Below are positions 31,511-39,600 of a stretch of 64,000 nucleotides of DNA, piece by piece. The notes under the pieces are model-generated. The model ran no database searches. It was given only the letters and a program-made list of their open reading frames with translations, and had not been told where the DNA came from. Numbering within the stretch: position 1 is the stretch's first letter; each line of letters opens with the position of its first letter. The translations under genes and the position numbers were made by a program. Source of the DNA: Bacteriovorax sp. MedPE-SWde (GTDB lineage: Bacteria; Bdellovibrionota; Bacteriovoracia; Bacteriovoracales; Bacteriovoracaceae); assembly GCA_001874305.1 (NCBI GenBank), contig MPCU01000003.1, forward strand, positions 372,001 to 436,000, read 5' to 3'.

Positions 31511-32149
31511 GTGAGTTTCATAGAGGTGTATCATATTTCTAAAAGTTTCAATGAAAGTTTTAGACTTGATGACATCTCTCTTTCCCTTGAAAAAGGGGAA
31601 CACGTCTTCTTTGTAGGTGCTAATGGTGCAGGAAAGACTACGCTATTAAAAATGTTAGCAGGAAAGCTACTTCCAGACTCCGGTGAAATTCGAATTGATG
31701 GCTATCCCATTACTCGCTATGAGAAAGACATTCGCTCACTTATTGCTTGGATTCCAACTCGAGATAATGGATTCTTTCCTCGCTTAACAGGACTTGAAAA
31801 TATTCACTTCTTTCAAAAATTCTTAAAAATGGATTGTATTGAAGAGCGTATCCAAAGGTGGAGCAAGCTTAGTAGCTTCAAGAATATGTTAGAGCGTAAT
31901 TACTCTGACTGTTCATCTGGAATGAGACAATTACTACAGATCTTCTGTCTTACTCTTCATTCTCCAAAGCTAATAGTAATGGATGAACCTTTTAGATCTC
32001 TAGATCCTGATACAAGACTGGCGCTAAAAGAGATATTACTTGAAGACTTTCCAGAAGCTAATTTTATAATGAGTACACATAATTTAGAGGACACTGATTT
32101 TCTTTCCGGAAGAGTTGTGAAAATTGCTGGAGGTAAGTTTGTTAATTAG
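31511..32149 (+). CDS. ABC transporter ATP-binding protein
   Basis: The 212-residue ATPase has Walker A GANGAGKTT (36-44), signature CSSGMRQLL, Walker B LIVMDEPFRSLDP and the switch His in MSTHNLED. The short length and the separately encoded ABC-2 permease downstream suggest a drug/peptide/lipid-type exporter. The GTG start is two bases after the antiporter stop. It converges on the radical SAM cluster, making export of that cluster's product a possibility but not shown. Confidence 0.88.
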   Translation: MSFIEVYHISKSFNESFRLDDISLSLEKGEHVFFVGANGAGKTTLLKMLAGKLLPDSGEIRIDGYPITRYEKDIRSLIAWIPTRDNGFFPRLTGLENIHFFQKFLKMDCIEERIQRWSKLSSFKNMLERNYSDCSSGMRQLLQIFCLTLHSPKLIVMDEPFRSLDPDTRLALKEILLEDFPEANFIMSTHNLEDTDFLSGRVVKIAGGKFVN

Positions 32150-32954
32150 ACTGATATTCGCAATTTTTAAAATGAATATTAAGAGCGTTCTATTTTATCG
32201 CTTTGCGTACCTCTTTGAAATAATCTCTATTCTTATATCTTTAGTAATTTATTACTTCACGTCTAAGGCGTTTAACTCTTCTGTTGCAAGTGGACTAACA
32301 AGCTATGGAGTAGATTACTTCTCATATATCGTACTTGGTGAAGTTCTATTAGCAATTCCACTATACTTTCTTGAGGGTCCATATAGAAATTTAAAAACAG
32401 CGGTAATTGAAGGGACATGGGAGACGATGATCTCTCTTCCTAAATCACCATTCAAGTCCCTTGTGTATATTTCAACTTTTGATTTACCACGTGTTGTTCT
32501 GAGATGCTTTACAACTCTAGCTCTAGCGGTTGTTTTCTTTGGGTTACGAATATCTCCTATGGAGTTTATACAAATTTCATTTTTTCAGATACTTGCAATC
32601 CCGTTCTGTTTTGGCTTTGGACTTATTGCATGTTCTCTCTTTATTCTCTCAGGTCGGGGACAGGCAGTTATAGCATATCTGACAACTCTTACTGCCTTCT
32701 TGTCTGGTGGATTCTTTCCTATATCAGTCTTTCCAGAGTGGTTAAGAGAGGCATCTTACTTGATAAGTCCATTTACATTCTTACTTGAGAATTCTCGATT
32801 AATTATTGCAGGTCGAATGGAGCTAAATCAATTCATATATGCTTGCGCTACAATAATTGTATGGAGTGCGGTCTTCTTTGCAGGCCATCTAGCAGTAGGC
32901 AAGGCAATGTACTTTAGAAAGAAGAATGGTGGGCAAATAATTATTTCGAACTAA
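32139..32954 (+). CDS. ABC-2 type permease
   Basis: The protein of about 271 residues has six membrane segments and an ABC-2 signature with GxFFPISVFPEWLREASYLISPFTFLLENSR-like topology (short motif GGFFPISVFPEW). I chose TTG 32139, preceded by GGAGGT at five bases and overlapping the ATPase stop by 11 bases; other in-frame starts are TTG 32124 and ATG 32172. Its final 14 bases overlap the convergent radical SAM gene. Confidence 0.82.
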   Translation: MLIRLIFAIFKMNIKSVLFYRFAYLFEIISILISLVIYYFTSKAFNSSVASGLTSYGVDYFSYIVLGEVLLAIPLYFLEGPYRNLKTAVIEGTWETMISLPKSPFKSLVYISTFDLPRVVLRCFTTLALAVVFFGLRISPMEFIQISFFQILAIPFCFGFGLIACSLFILSGRGQAVIAYLTTLTAFLSGGFFPISVFPEWLREASYLISPFTFLLENSRLIIAGRMELNQFIYACATIIVWSAVFFAGHLAVGKAMYFRKKNGGQIIISN

Positions 32955-33993
32955 GGTCGTGCTTGATCTTTGCTTGTTTGTAAATAGTTGGATCACAACC
33001 AGTATAGTCCCCAGTGTTGATATAAACACTTCCGCTACTTCTATTGCAAGATTCTATATAATCACATGTCTGACATGATTTAAAATCTGTTTCTTTTATA
33101 TTTCTGATCTTATTTAATTCCTTAGAGTTCTTCCATATATCTACAAGCGAAGTATCATTTATGTTTCCAGACTTTATAGGAGCACCTATACATGGATAGA
33201 CATCCCCTGAAGAACTAATTCCACATACTGATCTCGCACATGAGCATTGAACAGCTTTCTCTGTATTCTTGCCATTGAAGTATTCTTTATATGGACCTTT
33301 TAATAGATCAATGAATTGTTCAGAAGTAATTTCATTTTCTCTTGCACCATTTGAATCATCATATCGATCTGTTACTTCCAGTGAGAGTTGAAAATTGAGA
33401 GATCTTTGATTACAGATCTCGATCATCTCGCTAAGTTGATGAACATTTCTTCGATGGATTATAATACTTATATGAAGATCAACTCCAGATTCCTTTAATC
33501 TATCGATGCCAGCTAAACTAGTACTAAGAGAGTTTTTGATACCTGTGAAATCTTGATAGACTTCTTCTGTAGCACCATAGAGGCTTATATCAACACCACC
33601 TAACCCTGCATTAACTAATTTTTCACATTTCTCTTTATCTATTAGAGCACCATTTGATTTAAGACGTGGCTCCATATGAAGAGAGCGAACATATGCAATA
33701 TAGTCTTCAAGATGTGGACTAGCTGTGGCCTCACCACCTGTGAAGTTAATATAGAGAGCTCCTAGTTCTCCAAGCCCATCAATAACTTGATAGACTTGCT
33801 CTTTAGTCATCTGGTTATCTTTAGTTGCTTTAGGCATTGGACCTGTACGATCATAATTATAGCAGTGTGAGCACTTGAAGTTACATGTTTGTGTTATTTC
33901 AATAGTTGAAACTAATGGAATGCAATTCTTAAAAGCGTATTGAAGAGACTTTTCAAGTAGATGAGTTTTAAAGAAAGGATCTTTCTTACTCAT
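32941..33993 (-). CDS. Radical SAM/SPASM peptide-modifying enzyme
   Basis: The radical SAM Cys cluster is C37-x3-C41-x2-C44 (CNFKCSHC), followed by the GGEAT motif and a TIM-barrel. Residues about 245-330 form a SPASM-type domain with many cysteines (QCSCARSVCG, VYPCIGAP, CQTCDYIESCNR) for auxiliary 4Fe-4S clusters. This architecture is characteristic of RiPP maturases. The adjacent upstream gene (overlap of 8 bases) encodes a PqqD-like protein, the usual leader-recognition partner. The likely substrate is the 61-residue peptide encoded about 2.5 kb away on the same strand. Confidence 0.9.
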   Translation of the reverse strand: MSKKDPFFKTHLLEKSLQYAFKNCIPLVSTIEITQTCNFKCSHCYNYDRTGPMPKATKDNQMTKEQVYQVIDGLGELGALYINFTGGEATASPHLEDYIAYVRSLHMEPRLKSNGALIDKEKCEKLVNAGLGGVDISLYGATEEVYQDFTGIKNSLSTSLAGIDRLKESGVDLHISIIIHRRNVHQLSEMIEICNQRSLNFQLSLEVTDRYDDSNGARENEITSEQFIDLLKGPYKEYFNGKNTEKAVQCSCARSVCGISSSGDVYPCIGAPIKSGNINDTSLVDIWKNSKELNKIRNIKETDFKSCQTCDYIESCNRSSGSVYINTGDYTGCDPTIYKQAKIKHDLSSK

Positions 33994-34267
33994 TAGTGCC
34001 CTCTGTTGTATCTAAAAGAGATTTTGTTCTTAATTCATCAAGAAAGTACATTATATCTTTGTCAGCTGTGCCTTCATCTATATCGAAGTCAGATACCAGA
34101 TTATTCTTAATATCACTTAAGCTATTTTCTCCAGTGCATAACTCCCAGAGATAAGCTCCAACTTCATTAAGGTGATGAACTTCCTGGTTAACTCTAGAGT
34201 CTAGGATTACTGTATGCTCGCCTAGTTTTCTCCAGGATAAATGTTGTGCTCTTTTTGGATTTGTCAT
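33986..34267 (-). CDS. PqqD-like peptide-recognition protein (RRE)
   Basis: The 93-residue protein shows the PqqD winged-helix pattern: VILDSRVNQEVHHLNEVGAYLW (beta strands then helix, with LN-x-x-G-x-x-LW) and a C-terminal DIMYFLDELRTKSLL helix. PqqD domains bind the leader of RiPP precursors and hand it to a radical SAM enzyme, here encoded by the next gene with an 8-base overlap. It is divergent from the nucleotidyltransferase gene. Confidence 0.85.
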   Translation of the reverse strand: MTNPKRAQHLSWRKLGEHTVILDSRVNQEVHHLNEVGAYLWELCTGENSLSDIKNNLVSDFDIDEGTADKDIMYFLDELRTKSLLDTTEGTNE

Positions 34268-34309
34268 AAGAAAATTTTAGGTAATTTCCAACATGAAGGG
34301 AAGGGAATA

Positions 34310-35230
34310 ATGTATAATTATGACATGACCATTCCTAAGTTATTAAAAAAAGATAATATTCTCAGTATTGCAAATGAGCATTTAATTGAAGGGTTATTAT
34401 TTCGTGAATATGATCTCTTTGAAGCTTCTTCAAAAAGTGGGGAACGTTCATGGAAGCAACAATGGTACCACAATACTGTACTCCAAGATTCTCTAGTCGA
34501 ACTCTCTAGAGAACTGAGTTCTAATGTCGTTATATTAAAAGGTATGGCCTTACTTGACTCTATTTATGAGGATACGGGAAAGAGATTCATGTCAGATATT
34601 GATCTGCTTGTTCCTCAAGATGAAGTGTCAAAGCTACATGATCTCCTCGATAGAGAAGGTTATAAGAATATCACTGGGCCACAGTGGAAAGGTAATGACT
34701 TTAAGGGGGAATGGACAAAAACTACCAATGGAATTGAAGTTAATATAGAAATACACACAAGGTTGTTTTATCACGCAAGGGATCTCGATTGGGAACTTGA
34801 GAACTCTAGTATTACTCCATTAAAAATCTTGGCTCCAAATGATATGATCCTTCATCTTATTGGTCACTGTGCCTTTCAACATAATTTCTTAAAACTCTAT
34901 TGGCTAATGGATATTTATCTCTATCAGCTTAATCAAGAAATAGATTGGAAACTGGTACTAGATAGAGCTAAGAAGTTAAAAGTCTATAATTCTGTTATAT
35001 CAACAATCTGGGTATTAAATAAGTACTTTGAATCTGATATTTATGTAGAAGAAGTACCTAGTAGAAAAGTTCAAAATCTTTTAACTGAAGAATTTCTCTT
35101 AAACCCTAATCAGCAGGGTAGTGACTACTATAGAATCAAACATTATATGAAAGACAATATTATTGAGGCCCTTAAGTATGACTTTGCTTGGTTCTTTGAC
35201 AGAATAAAAAAGAAGTTTGCACGACAATAA
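34310..35230 (+). CDS. Nucleotidyltransferase-fold protein (NTP_transf_5-like)
   Basis: The protein has the segment VVILKGMALL then KRFMSDIDLLV: the Gly and the D-x-D pair (D96, D98) of the DNA-polymerase-beta-type nucleotidyltransferase fold, as in the PF14907 family often found with HPr-kinase-like/PqqD peptide clusters. In those clusters it may add a nucleotide or polyphosphate to the peptide or a partner; here that is inference. ATG 34310 is chosen (GAAGGGAAGGGA upstream); an in-frame start further upstream lacks a ribosome site. The last 59 bases overlap the S26-like gene on the other strand. Confidence 0.8.
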   Translation: MYNYDMTIPKLLKKDNILSIANEHLIEGLLFREYDLFEASSKSGERSWKQQWYHNTVLQDSLVELSRELSSNVVILKGMALLDSIYEDTGKRFMSDIDLLVPQDEVSKLHDLLDREGYKNITGPQWKGNDFKGEWTKTTNGIEVNIEIHTRLFYHARDLDWELENSSITPLKILAPNDMILHLIGHCAFQHNFLKLYWLMDIYLYQLNQEIDWKLVLDRAKKLKVYNSVISTIWVLNKYFESDIYVEEVPSRKVQNLLTEEFLLNPNQQGSDYYRIKHYMKDNIIEALKYDFAWFFDRIKKKFARQ

Positions 35231-35585
35231 CTAATAGAGCAAAGTGCAAGTATCTAAACGGAGAGTTCTTTGTCATTCTCTTAGAGAGAAAAGAGATAAG
35301 TCTTTTAAATGGTTGTCCTTTCTTACCCCAGAAGTACCTTTGATTACCCAGTGCCGTTGCAATAACAATAGCGCCAGTGTCATCATTAGTATAAACGCGA
35401 TCGCCCTTCGTAATTTGAGAGTCAATAAGCCGATGAGTAACAAGCTCTCCACTTAAATGGTCTTTAAATAAAACTATATTTCCTTGGACCTTAGAATCCA
35501 TTTCATCTGTAAATATTATCTCATCGCCATCTTTAAAAGTTGGCCACATGCTAATACCGGAAATTTTAATTCTTTGAAGGGCCAT
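35172..35585 (-). CDS. S26-like signal peptidase (Ser/His type)
   Basis: The 137-residue protein has GISMWPTFKDGDEI with nucleophile Ser12, GNIVLFKDHLSGELVTHRLI with His51, and VYTNDD..., the usual signal peptidase/SipW-Sec11 layout in which His replaces the catalytic Lys of LepB. A hydrophobic helix lies near the C-terminus (about 112-128), where SipW-type enzymes have their anchor. It overlaps the HPr-kinase-like gene by 20 bases, so it is part of the peptide operon and could cleave the precursor or mature peptide. It lacks the N-terminal helices of LepB. Confidence 0.72.
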   Translation of the reverse strand: MALQRIKISGISMWPTFKDGDEIIFTDEMDSKVQGNIVLFKDHLSGELVTHRLIDSQITKGDRVYTNDDTGAIVIATALGNQRYFWGKKGQPFKRLISFLSKRMTKNSPFRYLHFALLVIVVQTSFLFCQRTKQSHT

Positions 35586-36461: not shown

Positions 36462-36647
36462 CTATGAATTAAGTCTTGAGGCCCTACATGGAGTTGGTGG
36501 AGCAGTTGATGCTTTTCTTCCACCATTAAATGTCCCGTTACATACAGCACCATAAGTATTGAGCTTTTCTGATTCAATTTCCGGCTTAGAATAAGGCTTC
36601 TTAACCTTTGTCTCTTCACTTAATGTCTTATTCGTTTCTTCTACCAT
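36462..36647 (-). CDS. Candidate modified-peptide precursor, 61 aa
   Basis: A strong AGGAGA ribosome site lies before the ATG (36647), which sits inside the last codons of the gingipain-like gene (20-base overlap). The peptide has an acidic/basic leader with KKPYSKPEI (Y19-x-x-P22-x-I24, the YxxPx[L/I] motif read by RRE proteins), then TYGAVCNGTFNGGRKAS and PPTPCRASRLNS. It has two Cys (C36, C54), a Gly-Gly at 42-43 and a C-terminal Ser (S61). Gene context (HPr-kinase-like, S26 peptidase, PqqD, radical SAM) makes it a RiPP precursor candidate. Core boundaries and modification are unknown. Confidence 0.75.
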   Translation of the reverse strand: MVEETNKTLSEETKVKKPYSKPEIESEKLNTYGAVCNGTFNGGRKASTAPPTPCRASRLNS

Positions 36648-39600
36648 TTAGAATCTCCTGCCACTTATTATACCTCATGAATGCGAGGAGGACAAAGCAA
36701 ATGAAATATTCAAGTATTCCTGTATACCAAGGAAGTCCACCAGTATGAGCTGCGTTAACTGAGCAACCACCACCACTACTAGGCGTCTCTTCAACTACTG
36801 GAGGAGCATCAGGAAACATTGAGGAAGGAATTTGTAGAGATGGATCTCCTATAATAGTGTAACTCTTAACAATATCTTGTTCATAGGCACCGGTTCCAGT
36901 TGCCGCCTTAGCTCTTATTATAAGGTCTCCAATTCTTTGACCTTTATAATATGTCTGGATATCTCCCTCAAGTGTTGAGAAGAAATTCTGTGCTAATGTA
37001 TTTTGGGCAGAAGGAGTTGTTTGGGTTGTTGACCCCATAAATACAACCGCTCCACCAGTTGGGTTAAATATAAGTTTCTCAGAAAGAGATTCTTCGTATC
37101 TTGCTGAGTAGAAGTAAAGTGCTGTTTCACAATTCCAAGTCATAACTATTGGAAGTTTTGTATTAGTAAGAGCACTTGCATCAGTAGTTTGTAAAATATT
37201 AGTACCGAAAGTATTTGAAGCACCATGACCCATCATTGATACAATTAGTGGTGAGTTCGTGAAGCTATTAATGACTTCTGTTTTTGTCGCTGCATCTGAG
37301 CCAAGCGCCGTTCTATCAATCTGTGTCGACACAAAGCTTGATGCAGTTGAAGCAAGCTCAGTACTTCTTTGGGAGAACTTTTCATAATAACCAAGGTCAG
37401 TATCTGAAACAAAGGATATTGTTTTAAGTTCATCTGGTTGAGACGTTCCATTCTCATATGCTATTAGTTTCGTAACATAGTTTCGAATATCTTCAGGATC
37501 ATTAGAAGGAAGACGTCCAACTGAGATTCTTGGAAGAGTTGAACCTTCTTGAGTTACAAAGTAGTTATCTGTTCCAAATTCCATAAAACGACCTGTCATA
37601 TGAGGTGTTGGAATTGTTTCTTCGTCAAGAACAACTCTATCAGCAGCAGATTCACTATCAATATTATGATCAAGAGGATCATTCGTTCCATCCCCAAGAA
37701 CTAGAAGGTATTCTGGTTTATTAGTCCATGAGTCTATTGCGAAATTCATAAAGTCTCTAATTGCCGAAGTACTAACTTGTCCATTACTAAACTCACCATA
37801 GATCTGTCTCGGTGTAACTAGCATTACTTCTAGCCCTTGAGATGTTCTCTGTGTGATAAGCTCATCAACAGCAGGTAATAGATTCTTATGTCCTATAATA
37901 ATTAAATCTGCACGATTATCAGTATTTTTTAAACTCTGTTCATTTCCTGGATTTAAGGACAATCCATTTGGTGAAAGGAATGATCCCGTTTCAATAATCT
38001 GAATATTTTTTAAGCTTTCATCATTTTCATTGTCATTAACAAAGAATGAGGCTGTGTAGCTTGCTCCTGCATCAGGTGTTGTAATACTTGCATTACTTAT
38101 AATAGAAGCATCCAGAGGTGTTGTCGTATCATAAATATTTAAGTTTAAAGATCCAAAGTTTGTAATAGTATGTACTGCTGAACTTTCTTCTAATGTAATA
38201 ACAGATTTTCCGAGGCTCCCATCACCATTACCAACATAAGCTATCTCTGTCTTATCTATATATACCTGCTCAAATGTTCCAGCGGCCGCATATGTTCCAA
38301 GTAGTTTGAAATCTATTGTATTATTACCTGCAATGAAGCGATCCGCAGGTATCTCAAATGTTAGAATTTGTCTTTCATCTGCAAAAGTATGATCCATCTC
38401 TTCAGAACCACTCATTTCAACAGACATGTGGTGAAGAGTCACAACTCCATTATAGTTTAATCCCTTAACGTGAAGTTTAATAATTACGTTAGTATCAGAT
38501 GTGTTATCTATTTCTGGAGTATTTACAGTTAGTGAATAAGTATCAAATCCACCTATATTAAATAGTCTTGAACCAAAGAAGTGATCTTCTGTGTCTTCAA
38601 GTGTTTCTCCATCAACATATAGAGTATTACTTTCATATGTTTTGGTGAAGATTGAAAGACTATCGGATGCAGCTTGCTCTCCTGAAGGGTCACCGTTAAG
38701 TGATGCCATTCTCTTGGCAGTATTAGAATCCTCACTGATTTCGACAGTACTAAGTACAACACTATTTTTTAAGTCTTCAAGAGACGCTGAAAATGGAGCA
38801 TAGAATCTAATATAGTCACCAGTGCTAAAGAACCCTGATGGAGAATTTATCTCAAGAGGTATTTCAGAACCATTATAATAGAGACGAAGGTCGTTTATAT
38901 CAACACCATCAAATGGACCTTCAACCGAAGAGTTATTAAGATCGTTATAATCTAATTGGTACATTCCGGCCTGAGAGTAATCAACCTTCAGTGTGTTCGC
39001 CACTATAAATGGATTTATAATATCACCGGCCGATGGAGGAGTGATTGACCAATCATTTCCATCAAGTCCTATATCAAGCTCTATAGATGTCGCTCGTGTT
39101 ACATCTTGAGAGACAGGGTTATACTTTAGAGGATTAACTTTTATTCTTAAGTAAGTCTTACTTCCACTTTTTTGAAGTGTTGTATCTACATCAAAGTACT
39201 GACTCGGTGTGTCTGCGCTTGTTGCATAGTGTGTCGCGTTTGGACTGTATGAAGCTTGAAGATCTCCATTACCATCCATTGTCCACGTTGGAGCTGGAGA
39301 AATATTATGGCCTGCAAGTGTTGATTCACCTGAGACTGTTGAGTTAATCAGACTTGCAGTTGTTGCATAGTCATAAACTTCAATAAGAAGAATTCTTTCT
39401 GGTATCTCTGGAAGACCGGCCGTCGATTCTTTAGAATAACCGGTAACACTAACATCTTCATAAGTACCATTCCATGCACTTGCAGTGAACACTGGTGCAT
39501 CTGGAGTAATAACTAGTCTTATATTAGAACTGGTTTGATTGTGTATAACAACACCATTTCCAAGATCTCTGTAAGAAGGATTTTGAATAGGGAATGGGTT

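Follow-up and report, generated by a model that had tools for sequence, protein, structure and literature searches.

The window, a stretch of 64,000 nucleotides from Bacteriovorax sp. MedPE-SWde, contains a 61-amino-acid frame which, judged by its conservation, is a member of a real RiPP precursor family that is unnamed in the libraries searched and appears to be new. By its gene content, the surrounding cluster is a lasso-style set of leader, kinase, and nucleotidyltransferase combined with a putative radical SAM maturase. Besides, the precursor occurs across the phylum together with a giant, presumably surface-exposed C25 protease, whose gene overlaps the precursor gene in the window. Since genomes with the precursor mostly hold C25 as well, we consider it very probable that the peptide and the protease are functional partners. 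The features are compiled in Table 1.

Table 1. Predicted features of the peptide cluster and the adjoining C25 gene (positions in the window)
Feature	Position	Strand	Remarks
RiPP precursor, 61 aa	36462..36647	-	YxxPx[ILV] leader; core CNGxxxGGRK...P..C; C-terminal [R/K]-L-x-Ser
Shine-Dalgarno AGGAG	36655..36659	-	7 nt 5' of the precursor ATG, read from the sequence
HprK-like peptide kinase, 297 aa	35566..36459	-	H147, G163, G168, K169, and D185 invariant in 30 aligned proteins
S24/S26-type peptidase, candidate leader peptidase	35172..35585	-	Conserved GxSM (S12) and HR (H51)
NTP_transf_5 nucleotidyltransferase	34241..35230	+	Opposite strand inside the cluster; 116 bits (cutoff, 31.2)
PqqD-type RRE protein	33986..34267	-	PF05402, 53.6 bits (cutoff, 23.4)
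Radical SAM/SPASM maturase	32941..33993	-	PF04055, 87.6 bits; PF13186, 43.6 bits
ABC transporter ATPase	31511..32149	+	Pfam/NCBIfam match
ABC-2 type permease	32124..32954	+	26.8 bits, slightly below the Pfam cutoff of 26.9
Giant C25 protease, 2499 aa	36628..44127	-	N-terminal signal-like stretch; 3' end shares 20 nt with the precursor
C25 catalytic domain, aa 2076-2432	36832..37902	-	PF01364, 211 bits; H2301 and C2333 invariant in 33/33
C25 C-terminal tail (Cys, transmembrane, basic)	36631..36780	-	G2454-C2455 invariant in 33/33; MYXO-CTERM-like layout

The precursor family

The original prediction, which was made from the DNA letters of the window, had described a leader motif Y19-x-x-P22-x-I24, two Cys residues, a C-terminal Ser, and a strong ribosome site. 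All of these are present: the translation contains Y19-S-K-P22-E-I24, C36, C54, and Ser as the end residue, and the ribosome site precedes the ATG (Table 1). The precursor (P0001) occurs as a single copy in its 3.76-Mb, 15-contig genome, and its 5' end lies within the 3' end of the C25 gene upstream.

A search of 58 related genomes with the single sequence gave matches in 17 of them at an E value of ≤1; seven beyond the window's own genome were clear or lay beside the cluster, with E values of 3e-15 to 1e-3. With a profile, the order yielded 22 matching genomes out of 129 at E values of <1e-12 (29 at ≤0.1), and the phylum yielded 34 out of 368 at ≤1e-3, the latter corresponding to 35 places. 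The 31-row alignment made from these (A10) omits L138, which is cut by a contig end, the divergent variant L131, and L133 and L141, which were seen as frames only; the precursors of L131, L133, and L141 also end in Ser.

Seven residues (Y19, P22, C36, G38, G42, K45, and C54) are invariant in the alignment, and seven others (E27, L29, A34, N37, R44, P51, and L59) are nearly so, position 44 being Arg or Lys in 30 of the 31 rows. The last motif position is Ile, Val, or Leu throughout. The end residue is always hydroxylated (29 Ser and 2 Thr) and forms the sole Ser/Thr column occupied in all 31 precursors; Ser or Thr is found at S26 in the leader in 29/31 and at S47 in 27/31. The second Cys lies exactly 7 residues before the C terminus in 30 precursors, and the two Cys residues are separated by 17 residues in 24 precursors, by 18 in 4, by 15 in 2, and by 14 in 1. 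Homologues lacking the leader motif or the terminal Ser had been named as the observation that would speak against the original prediction; when this was checked, the motif, both Cys residues, and a terminal Ser or Thr were retained in all 31. Because its homologues are conserved in this way, we take the frame to be real, and a chance open frame was ruled out. Eight pairs were tried for substitution rates; in the only close pair whose dS was not saturated, dN was 0.124 and dS was 0.866, and the other seven gave no dS estimate.

The window precursor matched no NCBIfam model, and the 31 members gave three weak matches of one member each (best E value, 0.0029). The precursor had no match among 72,556 plasmid records, and our searches of the open PMC literature returned no description of the family. 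The motif in all 31 precursors, together with a PqqD-type protein in the window (Table 1) and at 29 of the 35 loci, places the family among candidate RiPPs with an RRE-read leader.

Two other frames were observed in the course of these searches. In G259, a second, divergent precursor (L137:231-404, minus strand; CDGSGMGGTK...GRLLS) has a complete cluster of its own. In G026, another short frame with YVKPQI (L038:12430-12675, minus strand) lies in the vicinity of genes for PqqD-like, radical SAM, and ABC proteins; it has more Cys residues and a different C terminus and perhaps represents a sister family.

Putative maturation genes

The adjacent kinase, described as HPr-like in the original prediction, contains H147, G163, G166, G168, K169, S170, D184, and D185. 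This is the same active-site set, H-G-G-G-K-S-D-D, as that published for BsfK and other lasso kinases (H148-G163-G166-G168-K169-S170-D186-D187; PMC10368454). In addition to the residues in Table 1, S165 and T171 are invariant in the 30 aligned kinases, and G166 is conserved in at least 90% of them, so that the His, the P-loop G..G.GK[ST], and the Asp-Asp pair by which RiPP and lasso kinases are recognized are found in the window kinase family. Its best Pfam and NCBIfam matches were PEPCK-, ScmC-, and HprK-related models with low scores, and a single-sequence AlphaFold model (mean pLDDT, 40.9) was too poor for a fold search.

According to the accessible text of the reports cited, lasso pathways include an HPr-kinase homologue that places a phosphate on the side chain of a C-terminal Ser (PMC8498205), and BsfK phosphorylates Ser3 of the core, not a C-terminal Ser, in a reaction strongly raised by the RRE BsfB1 (PMC10368454). 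It is likely that the window kinase phosphorylates the terminal Ser of the precursor. Because BsfK targets a core Ser, the assignment of S61 rests on conservation; the well-kept S47 is a counterpoint, and BsfK demonstrates that RiPP kinases of the HprK type can use another Ser. The precursor family provides a defined, conserved set of substrates for the kinase.

The PqqD-like protein and the radical SAM enzyme of the original prediction were borne out by the domain matches in Table 1. That prediction held for the leader motif, the kinase, the PqqD-like protein, and the radical SAM enzyme, but overlooked the C25 protease linked to the cluster and, within the cluster, both the S24/S26-type peptidase and the nucleotidyltransferase. 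In the radical SAM enzyme, C37, C41, and C44, as well as C250, C268, and C316, are invariant among 28 aligned proteins, which gives the family both the CxxxCxxC motif and the SPASM Cys residues. The two invariant Cys residues of the precursor are the point bearing on a thioether of the sactipeptide or ranthipeptide type, and there may be an even chance that the enzyme modifies C36/C54.

The S24/S26-type proteins keep GxSM and HR in 20 of 20 members, with S12 and H51 invariant. The window member scored 17.8 bits against Pfam S24, under the cutoff of 23.3, and 15 of the 20 members matched S24 at an E value of ≤0.01. A single-sequence AlphaFold model of this protein (mean pLDDT, 48.2) was also too poor for a fold search. 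In L033, the peptidase forms a single protein with HprK, and in L035, it forms one with the radical SAM enzyme. The true start of the nucleotidyltransferase may lie downstream of position 34241.

Over the 35 precursor places, HprK was found at 33, the radical SAM enzyme at 31, PqqD at 29, the nucleotidyltransferase at 28, the S26-type peptidase at 24 as a separate protein and at 2 as a fusion, the ABC ATPase at 17, and the permease at 16 (E value of ≤1e-3, or 1e-10 for the ABC ATPase, with the single best label per frame). Some of the absences arise because contigs are short. At L075, L076, and L077, neither an S26-type peptidase nor a nucleotidyltransferase was found near the precursor.

We also noted that L032, L069, L070, and L072 each have two PqqD-like genes, one by the kinase and one by the radical SAM enzyme, which suggests separate RREs for the two enzymes. 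In addition, two types of radical SAM enzyme share this one precursor family, with approximately 21 to 26% versus 34 to 54% identity to the enzyme of the window; the loci set against the window in this respect were L034, L035, L073, L081, L129, L130, L132, L136, L139, L140, and L141.

The C25 protease and its pairing with the peptide

The protein encoded upstream of the precursor (P0007) has the C25 domain and the catalytic His and Cys by which Peptidase C25 is recognized. The alignment of 33 proteins used here was obtained from 35 extracted proteins by dropping the window's copy and two partial ones and then adding the window sequence. As in gingipain and PorU, the catalytic His and Cys are in place, aligning with those of the gingipain R and PorU structures, and the solved structures nearest to the domain by sequence were PorU (52 bits) and then gingipain R (30 bits). 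Unlike gingipain and PorU, the C25 frames are approximately 2500 to 3500 aa long, with a long N-terminal region and a Cys-transmembrane-basic tail, and the window protein scored 171.7 bits against the PorU model of NCBIfam, below the cutoff of 420.

The tail combines an invariant Gly-Cys with a transmembrane segment and a basic end and resembles a sorting signal with one client. Its C-terminal Cys motif, transmembrane helix, and basic end are like those described for MYXO-CTERM/myxosortase substrates in the accessible text of PMC11980579. No C-terminal-tail model of NCBIfam, MYXO-CTERM included, matched the protein at an E value of ≤0.1. A profile of the tail searched against 15 genomes gave 15 matches at E values of <1e-7, all of them C25 proteins and spread over 12 genomes, while everything else had E values of ≥0.07. 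Because the matches were limited to C25 proteins, the tail does not serve these 15 genomes as a sorting tag of general use, in contrast to MYXO-CTERM, which occurs on dozens of proteins.

Among the 368 genomes of the phylum, 35 matched C25 at an E value of ≤1e-10, and 31 of these were strong (≤6e-61); the counts given here exclude the four weak matches, which lie in frames of approximately 670 to 680 aa. The precursor is present in 27 of the 31 genomes with strong C25, and 330 genomes have neither gene (Fisher P = 2.4e-30, a value that ignores shared ancestry). At the genus level, 19 genera have both, 3 the precursor only, 2 C25 only, and 157 neither (P = 1.3e-20, shared ancestry again being ignored); the precursor is thus present in 19 of the 21 C25 genera. 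The precursor occurs without strong C25 in G004, G085, G086, G106, G238, G256, and G260, of which G106 is 99% complete and has the peptide cluster. C25 occurs without the precursor in G089 (81% complete), in G091 (83% complete), where the kinase sits at a contig end, and in G250 and G276 (both 100% complete), where a lasso-type cluster with a kinase is found in place of the precursor.

C25 lies within the fetched neighborhood at 18 of the 35 precursor places, the window included, L075 and L076 having N-terminal pieces at contig ends. The two genes are neighbors in 17 of the 27 shared genomes, and the co-occurrence statistics ignore phylogeny; a pairing produced by linkage and shared ancestry, with a peptide that is an ordinary antimicrobial or signal functionally unconnected to C25, would be in keeping with both points and with the presence of C25 without the precursor in G250 and G276. 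We consider such a lack of connection improbable. In the other 10 shared genomes, C25 lies at a great distance or on a separate contig; some of these contigs are short, but on long contigs the genes are clearly unlinked in G012, G088, G223, and G354. Besides, within two genera the two genes show the same patchy distribution, with the exception of G004: in genus g14, G071 has both and the other 13 of 14 listed genomes have neither, and in genus g1, G000 has both, G004 has only a precursor, ending in Thr, and four genomes have neither. Our searches of the open PMC literature returned no link between C25 and a RiPP. That the precursor pairs with one surface protease across the phylum is an unusual genetic hint at the purpose of such a putatively phosphorylated peptide.

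For a functional partnership, the following pathway can be proposed. The PqqD-type RRE would bind the YxxPx[ILV] leader of the precursor, and the radical SAM/SPASM enzyme would modify the core, most likely at C36 and/or C54 in view of their invariance. Guided by the RRE, the HprK-like kinase would phosphorylate S61, as the kinase site and the terminal Ser or Thr of all 31 precursors suggest. The nucleotidyltransferase may next decorate the S61 phosphate, by analogy with that of pseudomycoidin, which adds hexoses to the Ser phosphate (PMC8498205). The S24/S26-type peptidase would presumably cut off the leader near the Gly-Ala/Ala-Ala preceding the first Cys, and the ABC transporter would export the product. 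Outside the cell, the product and the membrane-anchored C25 protease from the same locus would work together, the peptide most likely being a dedicated partner that regulates the protease or is bound by it. On balance, we lean toward this scheme of an RRE-read, radical-SAM-modified, Ser-phosphorylated, and exported RiPP that partners C25. Only tentatively do we propose the more specific reading that a radical-SAM-cross-linked peptide, phosphorylated or nucleotidyl/glycosyl-decorated at its C-terminal Ser, is a dedicated regulator, inhibitor, or covalent group of a giant gingipain/PorU-like surface protease. If true, RiPP chemistry would here serve the cell's own surface protease and have no antibiotic role.

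Gingipains cleave after Arg or Lys. The invariant K45 with a basic residue before it in 30 of the 31 precursors, the invariant catalytic His and Cys of all 33 C25 proteins, and the co-occurrence of the two genes would also fit a protease that acts as an extracellular activator and cuts the exported precursor after the R/K of GGRK, the peptide being an exported effector or signal. This seems unlikely, because GGRK/GGKK is retained in G004 and in the nearly complete G106, which are without C25, the cluster encodes a peptidase of its own, several C25 genes accompany one precursor in G012 (three, by their tails) and G088 (two), and PorU outranks gingipain R among the nearest solved structures. Retention of the motif where C25 is absent argues against a role solely as a C25 cut site, and the simple equation of GGRK with such a site was rejected.

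The basic pair could instead be presented to the protease. Flanked by the two invariant Cys residues at a nearly fixed spacing, the R-K loop might keep the active site blocked during export or for as long as the protease is not yet required, and the overlap of the precursor and C25 genes in the window would couple the production of such an inhibitor with that of its target. The pair is, however, equally conserved in G004 and G106 without C25, and we regard an Arg/Lys-presenting C25 inhibitor as rather improbable.

Relation to lasso and other kinase-containing clusters

In common with the phosphorylated lasso clusters of paeninodin, pseudomycoidin, and BsfA, as described in the accessible text of PMC8498205 and PMC10368454, the window cluster has a YxxPxL-type leader, a separate PqqD-like RRE, an ABC transporter, an HPr-kinase-like enzyme that agrees in its active-site residues, and a C-terminal Ser, the last of which is not found in BsfA. 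It shares the nucleotidyltransferase with pseudomycoidin (PMC8498205). Unlike these clusters, it has a radical SAM/SPASM enzyme, an S24/S26-type peptidase, and two invariant Cys residues in the core. It thus unites two tailoring logics that are described apart in the literature consulted, namely, C-terminal Ser phosphorylation and nucleotidyl transfer of the lasso type and radical SAM maturation. The accessible text of the RRE-Finder paper mentions neither HprK nor YxxP (PMC7470986).

BLAST with three queries from G276 (two Asn-synthetase-like proteins and one B2-like protein) gave no match to a lasso cyclase or B2 protease in the open reading frames of the 35 loci at an E value of ≤1e-3. Because homologues of these were not found, the identity of the product as a lasso peptide was rejected. 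The core of the 31 precursors has no conserved Asp/Glu column, and hence no Asp/Glu ring acceptor was seen.

The SynChlorMet (ScmC/ScmD/ScmE/ScmF) and HPr-rel-A systems of NCBIfam are likewise sets of kinase-like, PqqD-like, and radical SAM/SPASM proteins. The window proteins, however, scored far under the cutoffs of these models (ScmC, 25.4 bits against 125; ScmD, 24.2 against 100; ScmE, 88.6 against 400; HprK_rel_A, 16.1 against 200), the best E values of their relatives being 1e-9 to 1e-8, and the cluster was not assigned to either system.

At two further loci, L183:5815-6918 and L184:5536-6624 (both minus strand), we observed two proteins of 362 to 367 aa that begin with a leader of the lasso type (YAQPKL / YKKPVL ... 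FT) and a short segment resembling a core, fused to a PRMT/PrmA-like methyltransferase. These genes adjoin Asn-synthetase-like, B2-like, PqqD-like, and HprK-like genes, and it is possible that each product is a precursor fused to its own methyltransferase.
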